The notes under the pieces: model-generated
What the model was told of the DNA's origin: nothing
The model's database searches: none
The model's input: the letters and a program-made list of their open reading frames with translations, nothing else
Position numbers and translations under genes: made by a program
NCBI RefSeq assembly: GCF_000317535.1
Contig: NC_019757.1
Span: 2,558,501-2,622,500 of the forward strand
Origin: Cylindrospermum stagnale PCC 7417
Lineage (GTDB): Bacteria; Cyanobacteriota; Cyanobacteriia; Cyanobacteriales; Nostocaceae
Direction: 5' to 3'
Length of the DNA stretch: 64,000 nt
Part shown: positions 57,915 to 64,000 of the stretch, one piece after another
How positions within the stretch are numbered: the first letter of the stretch is position 1
Layout: each line of letters begins with the position of its first letter

Positions 57915-58574
57915 TTATTCATCAATACAATTGGGAATACCCAAGACAGCGCAGGGGAAATTAGCACCTAATGTCTCAATCATCGGATGAGTAACAGATT
58001 TACAGCCCATAAACAGGATATCGGCAGCTTCTGATTCAACAACTTTTTTAAGTTCTGTACTAATACAGCCAAACCGCAAATGAGACTGGAAACCACCCTG
58101 CCATTCTTCAGCTAGAGTTCGTGCTTGCCAGAGAATTCTATCAGCTTGTTTGATGGGAGTTAAAGATTCTCGTTGTAGATGCGTGGCAATTGCCGTTAGT
58201 TTTGGTTGAGTTAGAACCTGTGTGACCGACTTTGAGATATCGCTAACCGGACACTCTAATGGCAATTGATTTTTGTCAAAGCTGAAGATATCTAAATACT
58301 GATTGCTAGGATTTTCTTCTACTACATAAACGGCTTGAACTGTGACCTGAGCGTTGGTAGCTAAACGCGTTTGATGAGCAATCCAAAAAGCGATATCTAG
58401 GGCTGTGTGACTGTTGGGTGAAGCATCGTAGGCAACAATTAAGTTGACTGATTTTGCTTTCGAGGTTCTTTTAGAAAAAGGTTTTTTTGGCTCAGGCAGC
58501 AATACCATTTGTTCAATTAAGTCATCTCGACCTATGGCACTTTGCAAGCGCGCTAACATTGGCTTAATTTTCAC
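57915..58574 (-). CDS. Universal stress protein (UspA fold)
   Basis: 219 residues from a GTG with AGAGAGAAG about ten bases upstream. After an N-terminal extension of about 40 residues comes the Usp domain: VNLIVAYDASPNSHTALDIAFWIAH, ending with ADILFMGCKSVTHPMIETL and CAVLGIP. The ATP-binding G-x2-G-x9-G(S/T) signature is incomplete (MGCKSVTHPMIETLGANFPC), so nucleotide binding is uncertain. It is the last gene of the putative transporter operon and is preceded by its own ydaO-type riboswitch (58736-58850). Confidence 0.85.
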   Translation of the reverse strand: MKIKPMLARLQSAIGRDDLIEQMVLLPEPKKPFSKRTSKAKSVNLIVAYDASPNSHTALDIAFWIAHQTRLATNAQVTVQAVYVVEENPSNQYLDIFSFDKNQLPLECPVSDISKSVTQVLTQPKLTAIATHLQRESLTPIKQADRILWQARTLAEEWQGGFQSHLRFGCISTELKKVVESEAADILFMGCKSVTHPMIETLGANFPCAVLGIPNCIDE

Positions 58575-58681
58575 AGCTTTAACTTCTCTCTATGAAATGA
58601 ATAACGAACGAGAAGCAGGCCAACCAATTATAGATTTTGGATTAAACGAAATAAACCGTAATCTAAAATCTCAAATTGATT

Positions 58682-58733
58682 AAGGAAACCCCAATAAAAA
58701 CTGATATTACAGCCACTATTTTGGGGGTTCCTT
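58682..58733 (-). promoter_or_regulatory. Long hairpin between the second riboswitch and the stress-protein gene
   Basis: On the minus strand AAGGAACCCCCAA pairs with TTGGGGTTTCCTT (12 of 13 positions), three bases after the riboswitch core ends. There is no U run behind it, so it may form part of the expression platform or stabilise the mRNA end rather than terminate. Confidence 0.45.
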
Positions 58734-58735
58734 CC

Positions 58736-58850
58736 ATTGCCGACGGAGTTAGCTGACGGGCTAAGACTGGAAGGTGTCTCTCATTAAGATTAGCCCCATA
58801 TTTTGGTTCCTCCGCTTCAAATTTAGATTTGATAAATTTGAATTAGGCTA
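58736..58850 (-). ncRNA. ydaO/yuaA-type (c-di-AMP) riboswitch before the universal stress protein gene
   Basis: On the minus strand the order is GCCTAA, a perfect 10-bp AT-rich hairpin (TTCAAATTTA/TAAATTTGAA), GCGGAGGAACC, TGGGGCTAATC and the long conserved tail AGCCCGTCAGCTAACTCCG ending in GGC. The same core elements occur in the leader at 62456-62630. These blocks (GGAACC, GGGG-ATC, CCGTCAGCTAAC-TCG) are those of RF00379. It begins only about 25 nt downstream of the ATPase stop codon, so it is probably inside the operon transcript. Ligand is inferred from the family. Confidence 0.78.
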
Positions 58851-58874
58851 CCCACTTAAAAATGATAATCCATT

Positions 58875-59711
58875 TTACTCATCTTGAGTAAAATATCGGT
58901 CAAGAAAATTCAAGGCGTGGTTGCGAAGGTCAAAATATTCTTTTGTGTTTCGCATGGCACTACGATCGCGTGGACGCTCAAAGGGAACTTCTAAAATTTC
59001 TCCTATGTTAGCAGCTGGCCCATTGGTCATCAAAACGATGCGGTCAGACATATAAATTGCTTCGTCTACATCGTGAGTAATCATCATCACAGCTTGGCGA
59101 TGATTTTCCCAGATATCCAATACCTGCCGCTGCAATTTAGAGCGAGTTAGTGCATCCAGTGCCCCGAAAGGTTCATCCATCAATAACATTTTTGGACGAA
59201 TTGCCAAGGCTCTAGCAATACCCACCCGTTGTTTCATACCTCCAGAAATTTCATCGGGATACTTATCGGCTGCCGCTGTTAAGTTTACCATTGCCAAGTG
59301 TTCATTTACAAGGCTAATTTTTTCGGCACGACTAGCCTTTTTTATCACTTCATCTACAGCTAACCGGATATTTTCTCGCACAGTTAACCAAGGTAGCAGC
59401 GAATAATTCTGAAATACCATCATCCTCTCTGCACCTGGCTTGCGGATTTCTTTTCCATCTAGCCTTACTGAGCCAGAAGTAGCTTTTTCAAAACCGCCAA
59501 TAATCTTAAGTAGTGTTGATTTGCCACAGCCAGAGTGACCAATGACAGAAATATACTCATCTTCATTAATTGTAAGATTCACACCATTGAGAACGACAAA
59601 ATCATCTTTGTCTGGTGTCGGATATGACTTGATCAAATCTTCAATTTCTAAAAATCCATTACGGGTCATAACTTCTTGATAAGTATCTTCTGGAAATGAG
59701 GTATATTTCAT
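58875..59711 (-). CDS. ABC transporter ATP-binding subunit, NrtD/CmpD/TauB-like
   Basis: 278 residues from the ATG at 59711, with GGAGAA before it; a TTG two codons earlier is possible. Motifs: Walker A GHSGCGKST, Q-loop MVFQNYSLLPWLT, signature SGGMKQRVGIARAL, Walker B MLLMDEPFGALD and H-loop MITHDVDEA. The sequence is of the type that pairs with NrtA/CmpA binding proteins and TauC-like permeases. It energises uptake of a small anion or related solute. It is followed at once by the second riboswitch. Confidence 0.94.
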   Translation of the reverse strand: MKYTSFPEDTYQEVMTRNGFLEIEDLIKSYPTPDKDDFVVLNGVNLTINEDEYISVIGHSGCGKSTLLKIIGGFEKATSGSVRLDGKEIRKPGAERMMVFQNYSLLPWLTVRENIRLAVDEVIKKASRAEKISLVNEHLAMVNLTAAADKYPDEISGGMKQRVGIARALAIRPKMLLMDEPFGALDALTRSKLQRQVLDIWENHRQAVMMITHDVDEAIYMSDRIVLMTNGPAANIGEILEVPFERPRDRSAMRNTKEYFDLRNHALNFLDRYFTQDE

Positions 59712-59763
59712 GATCAAATTCTCCGGAAAAATTTAGTTATTAGTCACTATTGGCACTTGATAC

Positions 59764-61206
59764 TTAAGACATGAATAAGCGAGTGGGCGCGTTAGCCCTG
59801 ATGGTAAAACTATTGAGATATCCCACTGGATCACTGGGGTCAAAGCCTTTGTTATCGATGAATACTTCTGGAGGTTCGACTTTATAATCATTCTTGGGAC
59901 ACTCAATTCCCATTTCAGCGGCTATTTCCCGATATAAATCTGTTCTCCAGCCTTTTTCAGCTACTTCATTGGCATTTTTGGGAACAGTCTTGATCTGTCC
60001 CCAGCGAGCTGCTTGAGTCATCAGCCAGATACTTCTGGATCTCCATAAAAATGTTGAGTGTTCTCCTGGCTCTTGGGCGACGTTGCTAGGTATATCAAAG
60101 AAAATTGTCGTGTCAGCAGCTTTGATAGTGCGGTCTTTGCCATCAAACCCACCATAGTTGTAATTACCAAGAATTCCGGGAGCGGTAAACTTGGTGATGG
60201 GGTCGCCTGGATTTTTGGGTTTTGCACCGGTAAAGGAGCGGCCTGTAATCAGTTCGGCTACTTCTTGGCGGTTTTCCGGTTTGCTGCAATACTGGCAAGC
60301 TTCAATCATCGCCTTGACTAGGGAACGATAGGTTTTGGGATAGTTGTCGATGAAAGATTCCATCACCGCTAGCAGTCGATCTGGGTGTCCTGCCCAGACT
60401 TCTTTTCCTTGGGCAAAGGTGAAACCAATACCTTCATTACCTGTAATTGCTCTGGTGTTCCAAGGTTCCGCCACCATGTAAGCCTGCATCGCGTCGATTC
60501 TCATGTTGGTGAGCATTTGCGGTGGGGAAACGATAATCACCCGAAATTCCTTCAGGGGATCGACACCAGCGGCGGCGGCTACGTAGCGGACAAAGTATTC
60601 GTAAATGGCAGAACTCAGCACTACTGCCCAGATTTTTCTTTCTGGGGGCTGCTTGTCAAAGTAGTTCCGGAAATCGCGCCCAAAGGCTTCCAGCGCTCCA
60701 TCACCATACTTTTGTTGGTATTCGTACCAGGGGCGTATCCCAAAATTCCACATATCTTTGTTCATCGTCATGGCGTTACCGTGGCGGTGAATTACCATAG
60801 CTGCACAAAGGGGGGCACGGCGTGCGCCTTCAGCACCAACTCTGGCATTGGTGACGGCACCGGATACTACAGGTGCAGCATCCAGACGACCAAAAATCAG
60901 CCCGTCGCGGGAGGTAGCCCAACTGGCTTCCCGATTGAGTTGGACGTTTAAACCGTATTTGCGGAAAAAACCTTTTTTCCAGGCGATCGCAAATGGCGCA
61001 CAATCATTAACAGGCACATAACCAACGCTAATGTTGGGTTTTTCTAAGTCTTGGGGTCTGACTACTGGTTCCACAGCTAAGGCTTGTTCAGTTAGTCCTT
61101 TAACAGATTTATCTCCTGATATTCCACAAGAGGATAGGGATATTCCCGCTGTTGTTGCTCCTATTGCCTGAATAAAGTCCCGTCGAGTCCAATTATTTTC
61201 ACTCAT
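59764..61206 (-). CDS. ABC transporter substrate-binding protein, NrtA/CmpA family, Tat-exported
   Basis: 480 residues from the ATG at 61206. The N terminus is a twin-arginine signal (NNWTRRDFIQAIGATTAGISL) followed by a lipobox-like LSSCG. The mature part follows NrtA/CmpA: NISVGYVPVNDCAPFAIAWKKGFF, WATSRDGLIFGRLDAAPVVSG, AAMVIHRHGNAMTMNKDMW, MVAEPWNTRAI and the long C-terminal half. Nitrate, bicarbonate and related anions are the known ligands in the family. I cannot assign the ligand; the region GKEVWAGHPDR differs from the nitrate type as I remember it. The 286-bp gap to the permease gene holds direct repeats (CTCCTTTAAAAG). Confidence 0.9.
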   Translation of the reverse strand: MSENNWTRRDFIQAIGATTAGISLSSCGISGDKSVKGLTEQALAVEPVVRPQDLEKPNISVGYVPVNDCAPFAIAWKKGFFRKYGLNVQLNREASWATSRDGLIFGRLDAAPVVSGAVTNARVGAEGARRAPLCAAMVIHRHGNAMTMNKDMWNFGIRPWYEYQQKYGDGALEAFGRDFRNYFDKQPPERKIWAVVLSSAIYEYFVRYVAAAAGVDPLKEFRVIIVSPPQMLTNMRIDAMQAYMVAEPWNTRAITGNEGIGFTFAQGKEVWAGHPDRLLAVMESFIDNYPKTYRSLVKAMIEACQYCSKPENRQEVAELITGRSFTGAKPKNPGDPITKFTAPGILGNYNYGGFDGKDRTIKAADTTIFFDIPSNVAQEPGEHSTFLWRSRSIWLMTQAARWGQIKTVPKNANEVAEKGWRTDLYREIAAEMGIECPKNDYKVEPPEVFIDNKGFDPSDPVGYLNSFTIRANAPTRLFMS

Positions 61207-61221
61207 GGTTATAGCTATCAA

Positions 61222-61492
61222 TTATTTATAAATAGGCTCGCGCCCAATACGGTTCAGATAAGATACCCCACGGGTTGACCCCCTTTTAAAGGAGCTAATG
61301 GAATCAAATATTTCCCCTTTTCAATGAGGTAATGAAACAATTTAGCCCCCTGCTTTTAAAGGAGAGTCAGTTGAAGAGCGTATTTTCCTAAGGTAGCCGC
61401 TTACTCATGTGACCAAAGTTGTGCGGACTGCCGAGAGAGTTGTACGAGCTGGCGTGGGTTGGAAGAATCATCTTGGCATCAGACAAATTTTG
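61222..61492. other. Intercistronic gap in the transporter operon
   Basis: 271 bp with two copies of CTCCTTTAAAAG followed by GGGG (near 61293 and 61359) in direct order. No promoter or terminator is clear, so the operon may be continuous across it. Confidence 0.4.
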
Positions 61493-62344
61493 TTATTTAG
61501 AAGTTTTCGGACGGTGGGTGACTAACTCTTCAATTTTCCCCACAGCAAAATCCAGAATTAACCCAGTTACGCCAATTACCAACACAGCGAGAAAGACTGA
61601 ACTAAGATTTAAACGGCTCCATTCATCCCAGACAAAAAAGCCGATTCCAACACCGCCGGTGAGCATTTCTACGGCGACAATTACCAACCAAGCAATTCCT
61701 AAACTAATTCGCAAACCTGTAAAAATATATGGCAAACTCGCTGGCCAAATAATTTTAGTAATCCGCCGCCAACTGGGCATTTCTAACACCCGTGCCACAT
61801 CTAAATAATCTTGAGAAACGCTAGAAACTCCCAAAGCAGTATTAATAATTGTCGGCCAAAGGGAGGTAATGAAGATGACAAAAATAGCTGAAGGGTCTGC
61901 TAAATTGAAAATGGCTAAAGATATCGGCAACCAAGCTAGGGGCGATACGGGTTTAAAAATCTGAATGATCGGATTGAAAGCTAGCATTGCTTGTCTAGAC
62001 ATACCAATGCAGAATCCCAGGGGAATAGCAACTACTGCACCCAACAGAAACCCCACTAATACCCGCCGCAAACTTGCTATTAATAACCAACCAATTCCCA
62101 AGTCTCCCGGGCCTCGTTCGTAAAACGGGTTTAAAATGTAGTCCAGATTAGCAATTAGAGCTTCTGGTGGAGTGGGCATTACATCGTGATTGGCAAGTGC
62201 TACCACCCACCACAACAAAATTATTCCCAAAAATCCTAAGACAGGAAATAAGAAGACATCCCGAAAAATCACAGGTTTTGCCTTTTTCCATGCAAATTGT
62301 CCAGCAACCGCCACGATTGCAGCTAAATTAAGTTGAAATACCAT
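61493..62344 (-). CDS. ABC transporter permease, NrtB/CmpB/TauC-like
   Basis: 283 residues with six hydrophobic segments: residues about 7-20, 30-52, 105-130, 140-175, 210-235 and 245-275. The binding-protein-dependent transport signature is in DVARVLEMPSWRRITKIIWPASLPYIFTGLRISLGIAW, with the EAA loop. First gene of the operon permease, binding protein, ATPase, stress protein. The ATG has GAGG seven bases upstream and is preceded by a leader of about 290 nt holding the riboswitch. Confidence 0.93.
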   Translation of the reverse strand: MVFQLNLAAIVAVAGQFAWKKAKPVIFRDVFLFPVLGFLGIILLWWVVALANHDVMPTPPEALIANLDYILNPFYERGPGDLGIGWLLIASLRRVLVGFLLGAVVAIPLGFCIGMSRQAMLAFNPIIQIFKPVSPLAWLPISLAIFNLADPSAIFVIFITSLWPTIINTALGVSSVSQDYLDVARVLEMPSWRRITKIIWPASLPYIFTGLRISLGIAWLVIVAVEMLTGGVGIGFFVWDEWSRLNLSSVFLAVLVIGVTGLILDFAVGKIEELVTHRPKTSK

Positions 62345-62375
62345 TTACAACCTCAACAGATCAAAGCGCGGGTAC

Positions 62376-62432
62376 AAAAAAAACCGAACAGTACGGGCGT
62401 TGGACACTGATGAGATCGGAATATTAAAAAAA
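62376..62432 (-). terminator. Candidate expression-platform terminators of the transporter leader
   Basis: Two U runs follow the aptamer on the minus strand: seven U at 62432-62426 right after a possible GACGG pairing with the CCGTC of the aptamer tail, and eight U at 62383-62376 right after a hairpin with CCGA/TCGG and CAGT/ACTG stems (62384-62419). Both lie before the permease ribosome site, as expected of a transcription-terminating switch. Confidence 0.5.
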
Positions 62433-62455
62433 TACCGTCTCTTCAGTCTCCCCTC

Positions 62456-62630
62456 AATGCTTACGAAGTTAGCTGACGGGCTAGGGCTGAGAGATGCCCC
62501 TCTCTTGAGAGTGGTGAGTCAAATATTTCCTAACTACTCAATTTTGACTCTTAACTTGCCACTTTCTAGGAGATACGCCCCACAATTGGGTTCCTCCGCT
62601 CCAGTGCTACGCAATGCACTGGATTAAGCT
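62456..62630 (-). ncRNA. ydaO/yuaA-type (c-di-AMP) riboswitch before the transporter operon
   Basis: On the minus strand: AGCTTAATCC, a perfect hairpin TCCAGTGC/GCACTGGA, GGAGCGGAGGAACCC, GTGGGGCGTATCTCC, a variable middle, and the tail CCCTAGCCCGTCAGCTAAC then TTCGTAAGC. GCTTA at the start pairs with TAAGC at the end to close the RNA. The blocks fit the ydaO family, which senses cyclic di-AMP. The second copy at 58736 keeps the same blocks while its stems carry different, compensating bases. About 110 nt separate it from the permease start, holding two U runs. Confidence 0.83.
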
Positions 62631-63070
62631 GACTAACTCTAAAGATGGATAATGACAAATCAATTATAACATTTATGTGCCGTAAAAGCATCTGGATGAA
62701 TGATAATTTTTATTTACTTCAATCCAAAAATTTAGTAATTTTCGTCGGTTTTCGGTAATTAGTAAAGGCTATACATCCGGTTGTAGTGTGACTGAATCTC
62801 TTGTCATGGTACAGATACATATACTATAGAGAGAGAGCCAGCAAGCATGAAATGAAATTTTGCTGAGTATGATTTTTAACTATATAATCTGTATGCTATA
62901 AAAATATTTAATTCGTGGCTAGTCAATTCAGCAGGCTGATCTATAGATACAATCTATTTCGTTCTATTTCGTTCGGTGAAATGTCTATATAGTTTTGGAA
63001 GTAAAATCCTACTTACTAAACTAATTGCACATACAATCTGATTCAGACACTACTCAGCAAATGTAAGATA
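62631..63070. other. Gene-free stretch upstream of the transporter leader and of the histidine kinase gene
   Basis: About 440 AT-rich bp that must contain both divergent promoters. It includes short repeats (TTTCGTTCTATTTCGTTC near 62955) and no operator that I can recognise with confidence. Confidence 0.5.
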
Positions 63071-64000
63071 ATGGATTTTAGTCAACTACTGGCTGAAAAA
63101 ATTGATACTATTCTAGATAAATGGGTGGTAGCAGTTCGCAAAGATCGGCGAATTGAAAGCGCTGATGACCTATCCTACGGCGCGATTAAAGATCACATTC
63201 CCAATGTGTTGGAAGCGATGGTAACAGTACTTTCAAAAACTCAGGGTAATGATATTCAGTCGATAGTAACTGCCAGTTGGCAACATGGGGCTATTCGAGC
63301 TATACAAGGCTTTGATCCAGAAGAAATTGCTAGGGAATATCATCAGTTGCGAATAGTAATATTTGATGCAATAGAAGCGGATTTATTGCAGGGAACACCA
63401 ACTGAGATCATTCGTGCTTTTAGATTGATTAATGTTGTGATCGATGAAGCGATCGCTAGGTGTTTTAATAGTTATGTTAAAGAACGTTTAAGAGAATTAG
63501 AGCATCTGCATTCCTCACTGACGCTGCACAATGAGGAACTAACTCGCTTAATTAACGCTAATCGAGAGCATCTTTCCCACCTAGCCCACGATTTGAAACA
63601 TCCTCTATCTTCAATTATTGGTTACTCAGATTTGTTTTTACGGGAACAACGTAAAAAAATTGAGGGAAAAGAAACCTATGCCAATGTAGAACATATTGAG
63701 CGTGTACTACGCAATGGTAGACACTTACTCCGTCTGATCAATGATTTACTAGAAATATCACGGTTTGATACAGGGAAGATCAAACTCGAACTAGCACCCA
63801 CAGATGTATGTGAATTAATAAATAATGTCTATCAAATGTTGGAGCCTTTAGCTGCTGGGAAAAGTTTACAAATTGTGGTGGATTCTGTCCAACCTCCCAA
63901 ACCGTTTATCACAGATTCTTTTCAATTACAACAAGTTGTGACAAATCTTGTGAGTAATGCGATTCGCTATACAGAGTCGGGGACTATTAATATAGTATTT
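63071..64000 (+). CDS. Sensor histidine kinase with RsbRD-like N-terminal domain (3' end beyond the window)
   Basis: The frame is open from ATG 63071 to the window end (310 residues seen). Residues about 1-140 resemble the RsbRD N-terminal sensor-type domain (LLAEKIDTILDKWVVAVRKD; VLEAMVTVL). A coiled segment (RELEHLHSSLTLHNEEL) leads to the dimerisation/phosphoacceptor box HLSHLAHDLKHPLSSIIGYSD, where the His of AHDLKHPL is the phosphorylated residue, then the N box QQVVTNLVSNAIRYTESG. The rest of the ATPase domain is off the window. There is no membrane helix, so the protein is likely cytosolic. The signal and response regulator are unknown. Confidence 0.9.
   Translation, partial: MDFSQLLAEKIDTILDKWVVAVRKDRRIESADDLSYGAIKDHIPNVLEAMVTVLSKTQGNDIQSIVTASWQHGAIRAIQGFDPEEIAREYHQLRIVIFDAIEADLLQGTPTEIIRAFRLINVVIDEAIARCFNSYVKERLRELEHLHSSLTLHNEELTRLINANREHLSHLAHDLKHPLSSIIGYSDLFLREQRKKIEGKETYANVEHIERVLRNGRHLLRLINDLLEISRFDTGKIKLELAPTDVCELINNVYQMLEPLAAGKSLQIVVDSVQPPKPFITDSFQLQQVVTNLVSNAIRYTESGTINIVF

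Follow-up and report, generated by a model that had tools for sequence, protein, structure and literature searches.

Two c-di-AMP-class riboswitches, separated by three genes, in a transporter and universal stress protein unit of Nostocaceae

We analyzed a window of 64,000 nucleotides from Cylindrospermum stagnale PCC 7417 (NC_019757.1, positions 2,558,501 to 2,622,500), i.e., the whole stretch of DNA to which all positions below refer. Its minus strand carries, in this order, a predicted aptamer of the cyclic di-AMP (c-di-AMP, ydaO/yuaA) riboswitch class, here called RS1, the permease, substrate-binding protein and ATPase genes of an ATP-binding cassette (ABC) transporter, a second predicted aptamer of the same class, RS2, and a gene for a universal stress protein (USP) (Table 1). 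An earlier note on this DNA had described two minus-strand leaders with shared core blocks inside one transporter/stress-protein unit; the blocks are present in the sequence at these places, and the gene order bears out the single unit. RS1 and RS2 lie about 3.6 kb and three genes apart, above the 300-nt limit of the criterion for same-leader tandems (PMC9481103; cited papers are represented here by excerpts of their text). The RS2 model match begins 15 nt past the stop codon of the ATPase gene.

The whole window was scanned with cmscan against all Rfam families. Three matches reached the gathering threshold, namely one tRNA, RS1 and RS2. Against a gathering score of 38 for RF00379, RS1 scored 68.3 bits (E 9.9e-14) and RS2 56.8 bits (E 1.6e-10), each over model positions 1–134 of 134. 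The covariance model hence confirms the class proposed in the earlier note for both predicted aptamers, and both presumably bind c-di-AMP. The variable hairpins also pair as had been described, over 8 bp in RS1 (UCCAGUGC/GCACUGGA) and over 10 bp in the AT-rich hairpin of RS2 (UUCAAAUUUA/UAAAUUUGAA). The Rfam alignment sets the P1 stem of RS2 within this AT-rich hairpin. An alignment of the window RS2 with 30 other cyanobacterial copies gives the standard GCCUAAU start and puts GCC at 58848–58846, so that the edge at 58850 drawn in the earlier note fits better than the Rfam edge at 58844. This 31-copy alignment has 28 predicted pairs, 15 of them with compensatory change in one or more sequences. 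Aptamers of the RF00379 class contain a pseudoknot in which a hairpin loop pairs with the strand 3′ of P1. This feature, which the earlier note had left unmentioned, agrees as well. It reads CUCUC/GAGGGG in RS1 and CCUUCC/GGAAGG in RS2, and in the commonest classes the pseudoknot windows, which were picked for best match and without shuffle control, are complementary at 6 of 6 positions.

The home genome encodes a gene with a diadenylate cyclase (DAC) domain (129.1 bits). Its 7.6 Mb contain three RF00379 matches, i.e., RS1, RS2 and a third that precedes a gene for a family-4 glycosyltransferase (GT4). We rejected an origin by artefact or chance, because two of only three matches share a strand at a distance of 3.6 kb and this spacing recurs in relatives.

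Table 1. Features of the locus, with positions in the window
Feature	Position	Strand	Basis or remark
RS1, predicted c-di-AMP (ydaO/yuaA) aptamer ahead of the transporter genes	62443..62640	-	RF00379, 68.3 bits; own model R1 gives 121.4 bits for this DNA
RS1 pseudoknot 3′ strand GAGGGG	62450..62455	-	Complementary to CUCUC loop; overlaps 5′ half of antiterminator
RS1 predicted antiterminator hairpin	62402..62451	-	Covariation, 58 leaders
RS1 terminator-like hairpin	62384..62419	-	5′ half common to antiterminator; conserved, 58 leaders
U-run (8 T) 3′ of RS1 terminator-like hairpin	62376..62383	-	Sequence
ABC permease gene	61493..62344	-	BPD_transp_1; NCBIfam ntrB 235.7 bits, cut-off 209.05
ABC substrate-binding protein gene	59764..61221	-	NMT1_2, 207.7 bits; TTG start listed, in-frame ATG at 61206
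ABC ATPase gene	58875..59717	-	ABC_tran; ntrCD 369 bits, cut-off 291.8; TTG start listed, in-frame ATG at 59711
RS2, predicted intercistronic c-di-AMP aptamer leading the USP gene	58726..58850	-	RF00379, 56.8 bits at 58726–58844; alignment for P1
RS2 pseudoknot loop CCUUCC	58769..58774	-	Complementary to GGAAGG at 58730–58735; pattern kept across copies
RS2 hairpin H1, using part of the pseudoknot strand	58682..58733	-	36 leaders
Anti-Shine-Dalgarno strand CUUCUC	58610..58615	-	35 leaders; helix 97.1% paired
USP Shine-Dalgarno region GAGAAG	58583..58588	-	Pairs with 58610–58615; 8 nt 5′ of GTG at 58574
USP gene, 219 aa	57915..58574	-	Pfam Usp (PF00582), 35.6 bits, cut-off 24

We scanned 388 genomes of the class and 99 of the family Nostocaceae for RF00379, with stricter filters by which some weak matches are lost; 196 class and 89 family genomes had a match. 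The binding protein and the USP were sought in 145 class genomes and the 99 family genomes, and 158 regions were examined (genomes and loci are given with our handles, G and L). In the family, binding proteins were taken at E 1e-150 or better and USPs at E 1e-30 or better. In the class survey, a transporter was counted at a binding protein identity of at least 63%, and G076, with its binding protein split over two contigs, was left out. Regions were scanned with our own model R1, built from 31 cyanobacterial aptamers. Among these are the window RS2 and copies taken from some of the surveyed genomes, for which a match is built into the model; for the window, the evidence is the Rfam score.

The transporter was found in 64 and the USP in 76 of the 99 family genomes. 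RS1 stands ahead of 62 of these transporters and is absent in G136 and G178. The USP gene adjoins the transporter in 50 of the 64, with RS2 in between in 37 and without it in 13. The double layout, i.e., RS1, transporter, RS2 and USP, is hence common across Nostocaceae (37/99 genomes; 38 in a table that also takes in G129 from the class survey) and not a one-off. All 76 family USPs were found downstream of a same-strand c-di-AMP riboswitch: 37 in doubles, 13 in an RS1 unit without RS2, where the link is via RS1 only, and 23 elsewhere, with a riboswitch no more than 1.2 kb away; in one of these 23, G434, a decayed transporter precedes the USP. In G424 and G457 the USP follows RS1 and a decayed transporter at a distance of about 1.5 kb, and in G393 the riboswitch match, its position taken from the genome-wide RF00379 scan and not from the region scan, is 2.4 kb upstream. 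For the 13 units without RS2 and for G424, G457, G434 and G393 this link assumes read-through. At six loci (L239, L245, L255, L257, L260 and L262) riboswitch and USP are kept, and by tblastn the genes of the transporter appear to be decayed or shortened.

Among the 137 class-survey genomes outside the family, 39 transporters were taken, four of them cut by contig ends. A riboswitch was found at most 2.5 kb 5′ of the permease for 34 of the 35 with upstream sequence, the exception being G108; in three of the 34 (G084, G021 and G127) it lies more than 300 nt from the permease, and in G127 a GT4 gene stands between them. The USP matched in 37 of these genomes. Two are doubles (G053 and G127). In eight the USP adjoins the transporter and RS2 is absent, three of these having the upstream part cut; in 23 the USP stands elsewhere, with a riboswitch within 1.2 kb, and four had no riboswitch at the USP. 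G066, one of the eight, carries an additional USP that has a riboswitch of its own. Also, an aptamer core lies at most 450 nt from the USP in 68 of 69 named USP loci, with another 2.5–5.6 kb upstream in 57, in a set that favors close relatives and overlaps in species. In 40 doubles, the RS2 match starts a median of 17 nt past the ATPase stop, and at most 26 nt in 30 of them, a spacing that we count for the one-operon reading given below. The outlier is G129, where an inserted gene stretches this distance to 1621 nt. The insert (L304:1572-3332) is a TnpB-like gene that splits RS2; it scores 84.8 bits with NCBIfam guided_TnpB, cut-off 100, and has no Pfam match.

In the window, RS1 and RS2 share 75% identity across 122 aligned bases. 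Within the genomes of 37 doubles (insert removed) mean identity is 0.71 and at most 0.79. Among genomes it is 0.85 for RS1 and 0.89 for RS2 copies (means of 200 random pairs). A recent tandem duplication is therefore ruled out, and by sequence RS1 and RS2 are separate lineages. The pseudoknot loop follows the same division as a pattern: a CUCUC type (type 1) occurs in 96 of 99 transporter leaders, three being unclassed, and a CUUCC type (type 2) in 77 of 86 USP leaders, L192 and L241 included, with the transporter type in nine. Solitary USPs under a type-1 leader were seen at L307, L315, L316, L317, L325, L329, L331 and L332. On a tree of 185 aptamers, with few columns and many open forks, the transporter/USP label needs nine changes. 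A quick USP tree of 115 rows, with long branches, gives at least 10 changes of RS2 presence and at least 17 of adjacency to the transporter. Moreover, 43 of 47 solitary USPs have their own riboswitch, versus 43 of 68 USPs in transporter operons (Fisher p 0.0005, uncorrected for relatedness).

The leaders differ downstream of the aptamer. For RS1 we used 58 distinct leaders, out of 95, with a recognisable motif around GUACUG. The strand 3′ of the pseudoknot pairs with a downstream segment as an antiterminator, with 91.9% of cells paired and 32 cells changed on both sides compared with 10.7 in shuffles. Neither this count nor the covariation score was reached by any of 500 shuffles; seven pairs changed on both sides (reached by 6/500 shuffles), with a sharp peak against slid registers. 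A second hairpin, which ends at a U-run (8 T in the window), uses the 3′ half of the antiterminator as its own 5′ half. This terminator-like hairpin is paired in 87.0% of cells, a share that shuffles also give because its columns are conserved, and in 95.6% in its upper helix. From its sequence, RS1 fits the layout of a classical OFF attenuator, the strength of which is unproven.

For RS2, 73 distinct leaders were available, of which 35 entered the test of the Shine-Dalgarno helix and 36 that of hairpin H1. A 7-bp helix over the USP ribosome-binding site is paired in 97.1% of cells. Both sides changed at one pair only, UA to CG, in 13 of the 35 leaders, and this change may be a single event inherited by a clade. 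H1 is paired in 88.6% of cells, with 16 cells changed on both sides compared with 6.5 in shuffles. Both helices beat the shuffles in paired cells, both-side-changed cells and covariation score. In a crude two-state folding model, ligand lowered Shine-Dalgarno accessibility by more than 0.1 in 12 of 79 USP leaders, type-1 leaders included, and raised it in none; for the window RS2 it fell from 0.59 to 0.20. Blocking of the pseudoknot strand alone, as in the first version of the model, was dropped as an account of RS2, with accessibility going down in four and up in one of 76 leaders. We favor translational repression as the action of RS2, as the folding model suggests.

We lean towards an operon under serial c-di-AMP control, in which RS1 is an OFF switch and RS2 acts on the ribosome-binding site of the USP gene. 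Most likely, c-di-AMP would lower the operon at the level of transcription and the USP once more at translation, where the direction and the level of RS2 are what we infer. Bound c-di-AMP would hold the RS1 aptamer together with its pseudoknot strand. The antiterminator, which needs this strand, would be blocked and the terminator-like hairpin would form, and transcription of the transporter and all downstream genes would fall. RS2 would act on co-transcribed messages that have passed RS1 and set whether the USP ribosome-binding site is open; bound c-di-AMP would most likely close it further. The transporter would thereby be under one brake and the USP under two.

Several results weigh against this proposal. 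Across the 58 leaders, covariation in the terminator-like hairpin of RS1 does not exceed that of shuffles. Its U-run is shortened or broken in some relatives, and the window copy folds weakly (−5.4 kcal/mol) and in another pairing. A terminator scan of the window listed none at the RS1 or RS2 leader, and our own terminator finder flagged 9 of 94 RS1 and 7 of 82 RS2 leaders, i.e., it did not tell the two platforms apart. The folding model gives a mixed picture for the Shine-Dalgarno region of RS1, with 45 of 90 leaders down and 20 up, and accessibility in the window rises from 0.09 to 0.20 with ligand. At RS2, 67 of 79 leaders show no change above 0.1, and the first model version, described above, tells against the proposal too. 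The single both-side-changed pair of the Shine-Dalgarno helix is also reached by 479 of 500 shuffles, and the four such pairs of H1 by 83 of 500. In G425 and G431, H1 of RS2 is followed by a T-rich stretch and flagged by the terminator finder; intrinsic termination at RS2 may occur in some relatives. Also, the gap of 271 nt between permease and binding protein genes could house another promoter.

RS2 might instead simply form the 5′ leader of a USP message transcribed on its own, from a promoter inside the ATPase gene, with two units that merely became neighbors. Such USPs with their own type-2 leader do stand alone in 35 of 115 USP rows, and the frequent changes of adjacency on the USP tree would suit an RS2–USP module that could bring its promoter along. 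The tight ATPase-to-RS2 spacing in 30 of 40 doubles speaks for a joint operon, and we regard separate transcripts as improbable, though deserving serious consideration. A sigma-70 scan of the window gave no minus-strand site just upstream of RS2, nor of RS1; its sites were no more frequent than in shuffles (8 vs 10.7), and the scan is hence undiscriminating. If the USP does sit inside the RS1 operon, the second riboswitch could also be a redundant leftover, weakly selected and being lost. The own riboswitch is missing in 25 of 68 operon-borne USPs compared with 4 of 47 solitary ones, and RS2 of G129 is interrupted by the TnpB-like gene. However, RS2 is kept in 43 of the 68, varies less among genomes than RS1 (89% vs 85% identity), and keeps its pseudoknot pattern and Shine-Dalgarno helix. 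We consider such a leftover unlikely.

The pseudoknot strand is contested between H1 and the aptamer, which leaves room for RS2 as an ON switch: c-di-AMP would pull this strand into the aptamer and keep H1 from forming, and H1, if formed, would stop transcription or mask the start of the USP gene. With RS1 shutting the transporter, the genes would then respond in opposite directions. The terminator-like look of H1 with its T-rich stretch in a few relatives agrees with this idea. However, none of the 79 USP leaders gained accessibility above 0.1 with ligand in the folding model, there is no U-run 3′ of H1 in the window, and a terminating RS1 upstream would starve RS2 of transcript; an ON switch appears to us decidedly unlikely. 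The proposal of serial OFF control can be extended to a two-tier decoder, in which one signal is read twice on one mRNA by separately descended sensors with different platforms. The USP response would then be steeper or later, and the USP itself may be a c-di-AMP receptor that acts on the transporter. We put this extension forward as speculative and rather doubtful.

As members of the RF00379 class, both predicted aptamers exceed the curated threshold along the whole model, with conserved core, hairpins and pseudoknot; they differ in coming as two copies per gene unit, three genes apart and with unlike leaders downstream of the aptamer. The earlier note knew of no description of two copies in such a unit. 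For a gene-separated pair this holds within the literature searched. Same-leader doublets of c-di-AMP riboswitches are published, with 77 reported and pairs more than 300 nt apart excluded in the excerpted text (PMC9481103), and the arrangement is common in Nostocaceae. These pseudo-cooperative doublets are likewise two same-class sensors in series, but sit in one leader, whereas the present two are 3.6 kb and three genes apart, and the sensors can therefore act on different gene sets. In the Na+-I/c-di-AMP tandem systems described there, a c-di-AMP riboswitch is also second in series and is read as terminating; their first ligand is another one and both share a leader. The Synechocystis slr0753 gene carries a verified c-di-AMP riboswitch (PMC10117731), again cyanobacterial and on a transporter gene, but this is a putative chloride efflux gene and not an ABC operon, and one riboswitch is mentioned in the excerpt. 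In the literature searched, with most subscription papers outside it, including the 2013 ligand paper, we found no description of gene-separated c-di-AMP riboswitch pairs in one operon. We conclude that the riboswitch class is known and that its gene-separated paired arrangement is widespread and new.

The transporter had been called NrtA/CmpA-like in the earlier note; a function of this kind is not supported. Permease and ATPase pass the nitrate-type NCBIfam models ntrB and ntrCD and in this resemble cyanobacterial Nrt/Cmp transporters. The binding protein has its nearest solved chains in the nitrate/bicarbonate-type NrtC/CmpC, then NrtA and a bicarbonate transporter, but passes no curated NCBIfam cut-off (sole listed model SsuA_fam, 22.8 bits vs 163.5). 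Its orthologues in the class search reach down to 63% identity. A gap separates them from the next matches, which at 44% or less are unnamed, and we assign no substrate. A link from c-di-AMP to carbon supply via the transporter, as the note had suggested, is unsupported, and we reject this reading, with a binding protein that passes no nitrate or bicarbonate model.

C-di-AMP riboswitches have been tied to osmoprotectants in cyanobacteria (PMC5986932, PMC4284465), and the unit may serve an osmotic purpose. The USP domain of KdpD binds c-di-AMP (PMC8214093); by analogy, the USP of this locus is therefore a candidate c-di-AMP receptor. We further looked at 62 riboswitch loci, i.e., the best-scoring matches and the three of the home genome. 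The downstream gene was clear in 54 and was that of the permease in 28, of a membrane protein group in 15, of the GT4 enzyme in four, of the USP in four and others in three. In the home genome, the third match (L002, C2:1715453-1718668) precedes a gene for a GT4-family glycosyltransferase of 425 aa, which resembles MshA and sucrose-phosphate synthase models, all below cut-off. In G395 and G408 (L215 and L216) a GT4 gene, 79–80% identical to the home GT4, follows a divergent riboswitch next to RS1, which brings the c-di-AMP riboswitches at the G395 locus to three. The G127 unit (L276) combines riboswitch, GT4 (67.5% identical to the home enzyme), transporter, RS2 and USP.

These loci link the USP and the ABC transporter to c-di-AMP across Nostocaceae and add the GT4 gene as a third riboswitch target, so that the functions of USP, transporter and GT4 become testable as one regulon. 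Moreover, genomes with RS1 only, with RS1 and RS2, or with split loci form a natural set in which the value of reading the signal twice can be compared. Upstream of RS1 in the window, a divergent plus-strand gene with RsbRD_N and HisKA domains (63071–64000) runs off the window.

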